Assembly: GCA_020832735.1 (NCBI GenBank)
Contig: JAFIEB010000117.1
Coordinates: 1 to 42,808, forward strand
From: Oceanicaulis sp.
GTDB taxonomy: Bacteria; Pseudomonadota; Alphaproteobacteria; Caulobacterales; Maricaulaceae
Length of the DNA stretch: 42,808 nucleotides
Direction: 5' to 3'
In this document: in pieces, positions 12,302-29,747 of the stretch
How positions within the stretch are numbered: the stretch's first letter is position 1
Layout of the letters: every line of letters begins with the position of its first letter
Translations under genes and position numbers: made by a program
Notes under the pieces: generated by a model
Seen by the model: only the letters and a program-made list of their open reading frames with translations
The model's database searches: none
Told to the model about the DNA's origin: nothing

Positions 12302-12769
12302 ATGGAATATCTGCACGCCATGGTGCGCATCAGCGATGTGGACGCGTCCTTGCGCTTCTATTGCGACGGGCTGGGCCTGAAGGAGGTGCGCCGCAAGGAG
12401 AGCGAGGCGGGCCGCTTCACCCTGATATTCCTCGCCGCGCCGGAGGATATCCGCCGCGCCGGCCTCAGCGATCTGGAAGATGGCCCGATGCCGTCGGGCC
12501 TGCCGATGATCGAGCTCACCCATAACTGGGACCCCGAAGACTATGAGGGCGGGCGCAATTTCGGCCATCTCGCCTTTCGCGTGGCGGACATTTACGCCCT
12601 GTGCGCCCGGCTGCAGAGCCTGGGCTATGTGATCAGCCGCCCGCCGCGCGACGGGCATATGGCCTTTGTGCGCAGCCCGGACGCTATCTCCATCGAGCTC
12701 TTGCAGCGCGGCGACCCCCTGGATCCGGCCGAGCCCTGGGCGAGCATGGCCAATACCGGGTCCTGGTAG
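12302..12769 (+). CDS. Glyoxalase I (lactoylglutathione lyase) family protein
   Basis: 155 residues in two beta-alpha-beta-beta-beta modules. The metal ligands of glyoxalase I can be placed: His5 in YLHAMVRI, Glu in MIELTHNWD, His in NFGHLAFRV, and Glu in AISIELLQ. The order and spacing match E. coli GloA, which converts the hemithioacetal of methylglyoxal and glutathione to lactoylglutathione in the cytoplasm. AAGGAGA lies about six bases before the ATG at 12302. A GloA assignment is likely, though the glyoxalase superfamily also contains close paralogues with other substrates. Confidence 0.88.
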   Translation: MEYLHAMVRISDVDASLRFYCDGLGLKEVRRKESEAGRFTLIFLAAPEDIRRAGLSDLEDGPMPSGLPMIELTHNWDPEDYEGGRNFGHLAFRVADIYALCARLQSLGYVISRPPRDGHMAFVRSPDAISIELLQRGDPLDPAEPWASMANTGSW

Positions 12770-12783
12770 GGCGCGCGCAAACG

Positions 12784-12798
12784 GAACATTAACCGAAC
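12784..12798 (-). promoter_or_regulatory. LexA/SOS box 1 (GAAC-N7-GAAC)
   Basis: GAAC at 12784-12787 and GAAC at 12795-12798 are separated by exactly seven bases. This is the alphaproteobacterial LexA operator (GTTC-N7-GTTC) in the opposite orientation. It lies just upstream of the TTGACA at 12803. Confidence 0.75.
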
Positions 12799-12802
12799 AT
12801 CC

Positions 12803-12831
12803 TTGACAAGCCGCCATGTTCCGCCTATGTT
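12803..12831 (+). promoter_or_regulatory. Sigma-70 promoter of the SOS-boxed small gene
   Basis: A perfect -35 hexamer TTGACA (12803-12808) and TATGTT (12826-12831) are separated by 17 bases. The promoter lies between and under two LexA-type boxes, box 2 covering the -10. AAGGAG (12841-12846) then precedes the ATG at 12854. Confidence 0.75.
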
Positions 12832-12832
12832 C
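12818..12832 (+). promoter_or_regulatory. LexA/SOS box 2 (GTTC-N7-GTTC)
   Basis: GTTC at 12818-12821 and GTTC at 12829-12832, seven bases apart, a full match to the alphaproteobacterial LexA operator. It overlaps the -10 hexamer. Start-to-start distance from box 1 is 34 bp, about three helical turns, so two LexA dimers could sit on one face of the DNA. Confidence 0.85.
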
Positions 12833-12853
12833 TGTTCTGAAAGGAGCAGTGTC

Positions 12854-13150
12854 ATGGCTTATGGCGCTTCAACTGCAGGATATGCCCGCAATGCCGGCAA
12901 GCGCTGGCGCGGCGAGGATCTGGCGCGGCTGCGCACACTGGCGCGCCAGGGCGCGCCCGTGCGCCTGATCAGCCTGCGCCTGGGCCGTCCGGACAGCGCC
13001 ATCCGCGCCAAGGCGGGCGAGCTGGGCCTGACCCTGTCCAGCGCCGAGCCGGTGATCGCGCCTGCGCCCGCGCGCACGCTGTCGCGCACGCCGCGCCTGG
13101 ACGTTCCGCCCGCCCGCGCCCATCAGGGCGATCTGTTCGCACACGCCTGA
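12854..13150 (+). CDS. Small basic HTH-like protein of unknown function, predicted SOS-induced
   Basis: 98 residues. The middle part, KRWRGEDLARLRTLARQGAPVRLISLRLGRPDSAIRAKAGELGL (about 16-60), has the tri-helical look of a Myb/SANT-like or sigma-4-like DNA-binding helix-turn-helix, with the Trp and Leu spacing of such folds. The rest is a Pro/Arg-rich tail ending GDLFAHA. The ATG at 12854 has AAGGAG at the ideal distance. Two LexA-type boxes flank and overlap its promoter, so induction by DNA damage is predicted. The next gene on the strand is polA, starting 87 bp downstream. The family is not recognised; DNA binding is an inference from the helical pattern. Confidence 0.8.
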   Translation: MAYGASTAGYARNAGKRWRGEDLARLRTLARQGAPVRLISLRLGRPDSAIRAKAGELGLTLSSAEPVIAPAPARTLSRTPRLDVPPARAHQGDLFAHA

Positions 13151-13171
13151 CCGGCGCCTGCCGCGCACGCA

Positions 13172-13200
13172 TTGCCCCCTCCGCCTCTCAGGCCTAGCTT
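13172..13200 (+). promoter_or_regulatory. Weak promoter candidate for polA
   Basis: TTGCCC (13172-13177) and TAGCTT (13195-13200) with a 17-base spacer, 37 bp before the polA ATG. The -10 matches the consensus poorly, so polA may also depend on read-through from the SOS-boxed promoter upstream. Confidence 0.3.
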
Positions 13201-13236
13201 GGCGCGTTCCCAACGCTTGCCAGCCGGAGCCTGACC

Positions 13237-16011
13237 ATGGCCGTGACCCGCCCCGTTGACGCCCAGTCCCATGTCTATCTGGTGGACGGGTCGGGCTTCA
13301 TCTTCCGCGCCTATCACGCCCTGCCGGCCCTGACCCGGACCGACGGCCTGCCCGTGGGGGCGGTGCAGGGCTTTTGCGCCATGGTGTGGAAGCTCTTGAA
13401 TGATCTGCGCGGCGAGGATGCGCCCACCCATCTCGCGGTCATCTTCGACCATTCCGCCACCACGTTCCGCAATGCGCTCTATGACGGATACAAGGCCAAC
13501 CGGCCCGAACCGCCGGAAGATCTGGTTCCGCAATTTGCGCTGATCCGCGAGGCCACCGAGGCGTTCAGCCTGCCTTCCATCGAGATGGAGGGGTTCGAGG
13601 CAGATGATCTGATCGCCACCTATGCGCGCCTGGCCGCCGCGGCGGGCGCGCGCGTCTCCGTAGCCTCGTCAGACAAGGATTTGATGCAGCTGGTCAATGA
13701 CCAGGTGACCTTGCTCGATCCCATGAAAGTGCGCCGCATCGGGCGCGAGGAAGTGATCGAGAAATTCGGCGTGCCGCCGGAAAAAGTCATCGACGTCCAG
13801 GCGCTGGCCGGCGACAGCGTGGACAATGTCCCCGGCGTGCCGGGCATCGGCATCAAGACCGCCGCCCAGCTGATCGGGGAGTACGGCGATCTCGACACGC
13901 TGCTGGCGCGCGCTGAAGAGATCAAACAGCCCAAGCGCCGCGAATCCCTGATCGCCCACGCCGATAATGCCCGCCTGTCGCGCGAGCTGGTGACGCTGAA
14001 ACTTGATGTGGATGTGGAGACCGGCCTTGAGAGTTTCGGCGCCGCCGAGCCCGATGGCGAGCGGCTTTTAAGCTTCTTGCGGACCATGGAGTTTCGCACC
14101 CTGACGCGCCGGATCGAGGAGGCGCTGGGCGCCGGCCCCGCCGATGAGACTGGCGACGCCACCGCGCCAATCGATCGTTCGGTCTACAAGGCCGTCCAGA
14201 CGCTTGATGAGCTTGACGCCTGGATCGCACGCGCCCGCGCCGCCCGGGTGATCGCGGTGGATGTGGAGACCGACGCGCTGTCGGCCAGTGCGGCCAGGCT
14301 TGTCGGCGTGTCGCTCGCCGTGCGTCCGGGCGAGGCCTGCTATATTCCGCTGGGCCATCTGGGGGGTGATCTCGCCGATGGCGGCGGGCGCCCTGAACAG
14401 ATTTCAGAGGCCGACGCGCTGGGGCGGCTTAAACCCCTTCTGGAAGACCCCGCCATCCTGAAAGTCGGCCAGAATATCAAATATGATCTGGCGGTGTTCG
14501 CGCGCTATGGCGTGTTCCCGGCGCCCATCGACGACACCATGCTGTTGTCCTACGTCCAGCATAGCGGGCTGCACGGCCATGGCATGGACGAGTTGTCCGA
14601 GCTGCATCTCGGCCACAAGCCGATGAGCTTCAAGGAGGTGTGCGGCTCTGGCAAGGCGCAGAAATCCTTCGCCGATATCGACCTGAAGACCGCTACCGAG
14701 TACGCCGCCGAGGACGCGGACGTGACCTTGCGCCTGTGGGAGATTCTCAAACCCTCGCTGGCGGCGGGCGGCCTCGCCACCGTGTATGAAACGCTCGAAC
14801 GCCCCCTGCCGGCGGTGCTGGCGCGCATGGAGCTCAATGGCGTCAAGGTGGATGTGGCCCAGCTCTCGCGCCTGTCTTCGGTGTTCGCCCAGAAAATGGC
14901 CGAGGCCGAAGACGCCGCGTTCGAGGCGGCGGGCACGCGCTTCAATCCCGGCAGCCCGAAGCAGATCGGCGATATTCTCTTTGGGGATATGGGTCTGCCC
15001 GGCGGCAAGAAGACCAAGTCGGGCGCCTGGTCCACCGACGCCGCCGTGTTGGAGGAGCTGGCCGCAGCCGGTCATGCCCTGCCGCGCGCGCTACTCACCT
15101 GGCGCCAGTTCGCCAAGCTGAAATCCACCTATTCCGACGCCCTGAAAGAGGCGATCAATCCGGCAACCGGCCGGGTGCATACCAGCTTCTCGCTGGCGGC
15201 GACCTCCACCGGGCGCTTGTCGAGCTCGGAACCCAATCTGCAGAATATCCCGATCCGCACCGAGGAGGGCCGCAAGATCCGCGAGGCCTTCGTGGCCGAG
15301 CCCGGCCATGTGATCGTCGCGGCGGACTATTCCCAGATCGAACTGAGACTGCTGGCCCATATCGCCGGGGTGGATGCGCTCAAAGACGCCTTCCGGGCGG
15401 GACAGGACATTCACGCCATGACGGCGTCTGAAATGTTCGGCGTGCCCATAGAGGGCATGGACCCGATGGTGCGGCGCAACGCCAAGGCCATCAATTTCGG
15501 CATTATCTACGGCATTTCCGCCTTCGGGCTGGCCAATAACCTCAGCATTTCGCGCGACGAGGCGAAGAGCTATATCGACAGCTATTTCAAAAAGTTCCCC
15601 GGCATCGCCGATTATATGGAGGCGATGAAGCGCGAGGCGCGCGACCGGGTCTATGTCGAAACCCTGTTCGGCCGGCGCATTCACCTGCCCGGCATTCGCG
15701 ACAAGAACCCGGCCATGCGCCAGTTCGCCGAGCGCCAGGCGATCAACGCGCCCATTCAGGGCGCCGCCGCCGACATCATCCGCCGGGCCATGGCGCGCAT
15801 GGACGCCGCGATTGCGCAGGCGGGCTTGAGCGCCCGCATGCTGCTTCAGGTCCATGACGAGCTGGTGTTCGAGGTTCCAGAAGGCGAGGCTGACAAGCTG
15901 ATCGCGCTGGCGCGCGACGTGATGAGCCAGGCCGCCGCCCCGGCGGTCGCCCTGTCAGTGCCGCTGGACGTGGATGCGCGCGCCGGCGCCACCTGGGGTC
16001 AGGCGCACTGA
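13237..16011 (+). CDS. polA: DNA polymerase I
   Basis: 924 residues, full length with three domains. The 5'-3' exonuclease occupies about 10-290 ([46 protein letters not shown]). The 3'-5' proofreading domain, about 315-510, keeps its acidic residues: Asp342/Glu344 in VDVETDAL, Asp in [11 protein letters not shown] and the [12 protein letters not shown] motif, so it should be active. The polymerase domain fills the rest, with motif A in ADYSQIELR, the O-helix [14 protein letters not shown] and motif C in QVHDELVFE. It fills gaps and replaces RNA primers in replication and repair. It lies after the SOS-boxed small gene and before hrcA. Confidence 0.98.
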
Positions 16012-29713: not shown

Positions 29714-29747
29714 TTGACAGCGCTCCGGCTCTGTTCCATGAATGTTC
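29714..29747 (+). promoter_or_regulatory. SOS-boxed promoter of comM/yifB
   Basis: TTGACA (29714-29719) is a perfect -35. GTTC at 29733-29736 and GTTC at 29744-29747, with exactly seven bases between them (CATGAAT), form a full alphaproteobacterial LexA operator covering the presumed -10 region. A short hairpin CAGCTC-ATGC-GAGCTG (29763-29778) and CGTTCA-T-TGAACG (29815-29827) lie in the approximately 80-base leader. Confidence 0.8.

Follow-up and report, generated by a model that had tools for sequence, protein, structure and literature searches.

A small LexA-boxed helix-turn-helix protein with a putative sliding-clamp docking tail in Oceanicaulis and its relatives

Within a 42,808-nucleotide stretch of Oceanicaulis sp. 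DNA (the whole of which is referred to below as the window) we examined a gene for a small basic protein, designated P0001, and we propose with moderate confidence that LexA keeps this gene repressed until DNA is damaged, whereupon its product acts as an adaptor by binding DNA and docking on the sliding clamp. Control of the gene by LexA is almost certain, judging from the promoter sequence and its conservation in relatives, and docking on the clamp is probable from the form and invariance of a short motif at the C-terminus, while an effect on the replisome is a possibility to which we give slightly less than even weight. The C-terminal Q-x-x-L-F motif is conserved and had gone unnoticed in the initial annotation of this DNA, which described the boxes, the promoter and the reading frame. 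The coordinates of all features are given in Table 1.

Table 1. Features of the P0001 gene, its control region and its protein, in window coordinates
Feature	Position	Strand	Remarks
LexA box 1 (GTTCGGTTAATGTTC)	12784..12798	-	exact GTTC-N7-GTTC; immediately 5' of the -35
Sigma-70-type promoter, TTGACA-17-TATGTT	12803..12831	+	-35 at 12803, -10 at 12826
LexA box 2 (GTTCCGCCTATGTTC)	12818..12832	+	exact GTTC-N7-GTTC; overlaps the -10
P0001, 98-aa basic protein	12854..13150	+	stop included; pI 11.6
Residues 9-60, G-Y-x-R-N-A-G arm and tri-helical GcrA/Myb-like HTH	12878..13033	+	from conservation and model
Residues 61-90, variable, disordered-looking linker	13034..13123	+	pLDDT blocks 69, 67, 56
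Residues 91-95, QGDLF, putative beta-clamp (DnaN) docking pentapeptide	13124..13138	+	Q, L and F invariant in 23/23

Control region and its conservation

The two full GTTC-N7-GTTC boxes and the TTGACA-17-TATGTT promoter were exactly where the initial annotation had placed them, and its 98-residue basic protein was likewise recovered. The boxes face each other around the -35 element, with the downstream box covering the -10. A promoter scan returned one promoter-like site against a shuffle mean of 0.0, and the window as a whole contained three exact boxes where 0.48 were expected, a number reached by 1 of 100 shuffles. The third of these boxes (29733-29747) lies 89 nt 5' of a yifB/comM-like ORF named by eye. 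An AAAGGAG sequence resembling a ribosome-binding site precedes the ATG at 12854, which is kept in relatives and which we take as the start of P0001 in place of the TTG at 12803 given in the mechanical ORF list. No terminator-like site was found within 12700-13400, and read-through into polA is therefore possible in the closest clade.

Scanning the 2.78-Mb genome (146 contigs) yielded 49 exact GTTC-N7-GTTC sites compared with 33 for a reversed control pattern, so the box pattern alone is weak evidence and conservation was used to decide. The lexA gene (Pfam PF01726, C103:82584) has an exact box of the same kind at C103:82523, and the boxed ORFs recognised by eye included recA, ssb, a Y-family polymerase, mmcB and a yifB/comM-type gene. 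The SOS consensus of Caulobacter is likewise GTTCN7GTTC in the excerpted texts of PMC12700426 and PMC12907096, and the former gives about 97% of Caulobacter SOS promoters as carrying one box. In this genome the P0001 promoter alone, among the 49 exact boxes, had a pair within 300 bases; a second site with one mismatch was observed beside the lexA, recA and yifB-like boxes when ten boxed promoters were picked for comparison.

Conservation was assessed in a set of 23 distinct orthologues from four genera of one family, 17 of which came from 61 relatives (strong match, at least 72 bits) and six more from 299 genomes of the order (at least 95 bits). All weak hits at the level of the helix-turn-helix (HTH) were left out of this set, and the weak hits L049-L054 were judged to be chance on reading their loci and were dropped. 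The relatives belong to Alkalicaulis, Oceanicaulis, Marinicauda and Glycocaulis, or are unplaced Maricaulaceae or Alphaproteobacteria. The box over the -10 was exact in all 23, starting 35-41 nt 5' of the start codon, where shuffled 120-nt upstream regions would give 0.10 of 23, and TTGAC was observed within 75 nt 5' of the start codon in 22 of them. In an alignment anchored on the box, so that agreement in the half-sites follows from the choice of anchor, the flanking DNA showed a mean per-column agreement of 45% 36-60 nt further upstream and 53% between the -35 and the box. As the orthologues are related to one another, 23 of 23 does not equal 23 independent events. Conservation of this box and its presence upstream of lexA and a recA-like ORF both point strongly to LexA as the regulator, as had been suggested.

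The facing box behaved differently from the one over the -10. It was exact in 11 of the 23 orthologues (with box starts offset by 34-36 nt) and carried one mismatch in a twelfth, and it was missing from the three QPDLF members and from genera g14 and g15. The double LexA control proposed earlier is thus real for this promoter, the sole exact pair in the genome, but with 11 of 23 the second box does not define the gene.

The HTH domain and the C-terminal tail

A total of 24 positions were invariant in the 23 orthologues, 21 of them up to the end of the HTH, counting M1, and the remaining three being Q91, L94 and F95. The mean top-residue frequency was 0.80 over residues 9-60, fell to 0.50 in the linker (61-90) and was again 0.80 over residues 91-95. 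An AlphaFold model from 17 sequences (mean pLDDT 72.6, pTM 0.49, pLDDT about 90 over residues 21-60) contained helices at residues 20-31, 36-43 and 47-57 with no helix or strand past residue 62, and the HTH-like middle noted from the sequence accordingly corresponds to a modelled three-helix domain at residues 20-57. The last two pLDDT blocks were 56 and 57, which would place the tail motif in a flexible, accessible-looking segment. The initial annotation recognised no family for the protein; this held for Pfam and NCBIfam, in which P0001 had no match and no enzyme domain was found, while PHROGs gave an HTH-level match to phrog_323 (D5-like transcription regulator, E 3.5e-07, residues 14-64).

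Foldseek returned nothing below E 0.27. That value belonged to 2lvs, a CRISPR-repeat-binding protein that was also the closest solved structure by sequence when searched with a profile of 17 orthologues (E 3.9e-06, residues 16-61); its match covers the HTH only (rmsd 4.2), and 2lvs has no such tail. The DNA-binding domain of GcrA (5yiu) ranked second by E-value (0.62; rmsd 0.9 Å over 44 columns, 30% identity) and first by Z, at 7.5 (rmsd 2.4 over 48 residues), although this Z is within 1 of the Tc3A transposase and spliceosomal Myb-like rows and a value below 8 may reflect a common helical arrangement. The GcrA family PF07750 gave no hit for P0001 and weak hits for 4 of 17 orthologues (best E 0.0089), and a profile of the 17 orthologues matched GcrA with E 0.48. 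P0001 ends at residue 98 without the long C-terminal part of this genome's own GcrA; the C-terminal domain of GcrA is the one that interacts with the sigma factor. The R-N-A-V-I-G-K stretch of GcrA was also absent from P0001 when compared by eye. On the model, we class the N-terminal half as a GcrA/Myb-like HTH by resemblance of fold, and not P0001 as a GcrA. The genome's GcrA was itself observed as two halves on two contigs (L055 and L056; G000:C48 and C85); the halves share letters where they are cut, which suggests one gene split in assembly and not two genes.

The HTH is joined to the tail motif by a linker that is 26-36 residues long and differs between orthologues in sequence as well as length. 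Q-x-x-L-F was present in all 23 orthologues, 0-3 residues from the C-terminus, and shuffled tails would be expected to place QxxLF within 9 residues of the C-terminus in about 0.02 of 23. The pentapeptides were QLELF (11), QGDLF (6, P0001 among them), QMDLF (3) and QPDLF (3), giving a second residue of L or M in 14, G in 6 and P in 3. The published consensus for beta-clamp partners, as it appears in excerpts of the sources, is a C-terminal QL[S/D]LF (PMC9690074), revised to Q-aliphatic-x-[L/M]-[F/L] (PMC13254535). The QGDLF of P0001 departs further from the consensus than the QLELF found in relatives, its second residue not being aliphatic.

A terminal clamp-like pentapeptide was observed at 24 of 953 distinct ORF ends, comprising the 23 orthologues and one LexA-boxed radical-SAM-like protein encoded in this genome; these ends include shadow ORFs and come from loci chosen around such genes, so they are no random sample, and the pattern had been widened to G and P in second position after the P0001 orthologues were seen. 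The radical-SAM-like protein (named by eye; L006 1481-2647 / L125, G000:C29) ends in QMSLF and has relatives in several families of the order. In the loci read from the best 30 of its 45 matching genomes a box preceded the gene every time (30 of 30), and the protein ended in a terminal clamp-like pentapeptide in 25, in a six-residue form (QMALDL or QMRLAF) in four more, and in neither in one. Some of these relatives carry QPSLF or QGSLF, and the second position may therefore be lax in this group. Taken with the 23 of 23 above, these counts indicate a terminal clamp-like tag in two LexA-boxed genes of the group, and make the radical-SAM-like protein a second candidate clamp-docking SOS protein on sequence grounds.

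The boxed Y-family-polymerase-like ORF of this genome (named by eye) carries QLDLF. Y-family polymerases and SocB have in common with P0001 a short linear motif of the Q-x-x-L-F type, which in P0001 would putatively fit the DnaN pocket; P0001 differs from the polymerases, which are clamp-docking SOS proteins, in that no enzyme domain was found in it. SocB of Caulobacter is described in the excerpted texts of PMC9690074 and PMC12795458 as a toxin that blocks elongation via the clamp pocket. It appears, by this description, to be the nearest functional parallel to P0001.

Neighbourhood, distribution and wider relatives

As the initial annotation had it, the next gene is polA; it was identified by PF00476 and lies 86 bases past the P0001 stop. 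This is true of the window, but the link is incidental: polA was 3' of the gene in 6 of 23 orthologues, the closest relatives, and a partnership with polA as a general feature was rejected. On the upstream side (flanks of about 1.5 kb) a VOC/glyoxalase-family gene was present in 21 of 23 orthologue loci and was preceded by a membrane-protein-like ORF in 20 of 23. Its own promoter and the turnover among its downstream neighbours suggest that the gene is an independent unit.

Of the 299 order genomes, 19 had strong matches, too few for a core SOS function, and among 385 genomes in the class search the window's own genome was the only one with a strong match; both searches covered sampled genomes, with at most 16 (order) and 13 (class) candidates scored per genome, and may have missed some. 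In 14 of the 33 order genomes with matches, and in 10 of the 11 class genomes, the hits were weak and at the level of the HTH, with no more than 62 bits. We read 23 weak-match loci, from 11 of these 14 order genomes together with 12 loci of the 10 class genomes. The QxxLF tail was found in none of the 23, nor in two Pseudomonas phage proteins, and a GTTC-N7-GTTC site near two of the 23 loci (L086 and L114) was indistinguishable from chance; such sites beside tail-less relatives count against the adaptor reading. These small HTH-only proteins (RN-x-G ... NQSPY type), from the same class and from Pseudomonas phages, share the RN-x-G arm and the HTH with P0001, and several end in KPTNQSPYNR-like tails without QxxLF. 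The phage relatives (L155 1480-1680; L156 1513-1716) are annotated as hypothetical and have tails of this kind.

In one genome (L048/L092; G034:C15:46498-46650) a short HTH protein lacking both box and tail directly follows the VOC gene, which is 70% identical. A history in which an HTH-only gene gained LexA boxes and a clamp tail is plausible; for the L048/L092 genome, loss of box and tail is as possible as ancestral absence. A close-relative search of viral contigs found no relative of P0001, and the matches from 6 phage and 3 plasmid records were all below 60% identity. A phage or plasmid origin was rejected on these searches and on the conserved chromosomal place next to the VOC gene (21 of 23).

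Proposed function and alternative explanations

In the proposed mechanism LexA would lie over the -10 and beside the -35 in undamaged cells, keeping the promoter silent. Upon DNA damage LexA would be cleaved and leave the boxes, and the strong promoter would fire. P0001 would then bind DNA through the HTH and its basic arm, and its tail would dock on DnaN, placing it at replication forks and clamp-marked gaps. Once docked, it would most likely compete with the replicative polymerase or help to exchange it while repair proceeds; recruitment to gaps is another possible effect. The outcome could be a brake on replication, easier polymerase exchange or the recruitment of some partner. The initial annotation had read the two boxes as the pattern of a division inhibitor or damage-specific regulator; the conserved clamp-like C-terminal motif points instead to the replication fork.

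A stronger version of this proposal, which we offer tentatively and with some doubt, is that P0001 could be a dedicated SOS fork factor free of any enzyme domain, a LexA-repressed, DNA-binding adaptor tethered to the clamp, which would slow the replisome or remodel it during damage and which would have arisen from an HTH-only protein by acquisition of the tail and the boxes. Clamp-docking SOS effectors are already known, and P0001 as proposed is a variant of these; the known bacterial examples are mostly polymerases and other enzymes. If the proposal is true, the LexA regulon of this group deploys clamp docking repeatedly (in the adaptor, the Y-family polymerase and the radical-SAM protein), and bacteria would have, in a tiny LexA-boxed adaptor with a DNA-binding domain and a clamp-docking tail, a simple means of altering replication during damage. 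Three residues, Q91, L94 and F95, offer a concrete experimental target. No description of P0001 was found among the titles and abstract openings listed from open-licence PMC papers.

We consider it unlikely that P0001 is a plain secondary SOS transcription factor, with the HTH acting on promoters and QxxLF either structural or contacting a partner other than the clamp, such as RNA polymerase or a protease adaptor. The resemblance of the modelled HTH to the GcrA DNA-binding domain and the match to phrog_323, which is transcription-regulator-like, agree with such a role, and 14 of the 23 members end in LFxxA, which might be a degradation signal. Poor conservation of the residues past F (0.45) and the absence of LFxxA from 9 of 23 members speak against selection for a degradation tag. 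The tail also fits the published form of the clamp consensus, best in the 11 QLELF and three QMDLF members, and a like tail ends the LexA-boxed radical-SAM-like protein.

Less probable still is a dedicated inhibitor of replication or growth, checkpoint or toxin-like, which would occupy the clamp pocket as SocB does with the HTH merely concentrating the protein on DNA. Two LexA boxes would fit tight silencing of such a protein, and inhibition of elongation through the clamp pocket has been described for SocB in the excerpted sources (PMC9690074, PMC12795458), but 12 of the 23 orthologues have no exact second box and the conserved neighbours tested (the VOC gene and the membrane-protein-like ORF) include no antitoxin-like gene. 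A fortuitous box ahead of an ordinary small HTH gene is hardly credible given a box that is exact in 23 of 23 orthologues despite diverged flanks, common as exact sites are in the genome (49; reversed control 33) and even though the HTH-only relatives mostly have no box. We therefore retain the LexA-repressed, clamp-docking adaptor as the preferred reading.

LexA-type boxes were also observed ahead of other genes. One lies directly 5' of an ORF that we take to be of the Panacea/SocA antitoxin type (L104 1509-2340; G000:C120:27608 onward), and is followed after that ORF by a small ORF and a transposase-like frame near the contig end. Another (L017 1501; G000:C59:17655) is 5' of what we presume to be a phage terminase-like gene pair, perhaps part of an SOS-controlled prophage.
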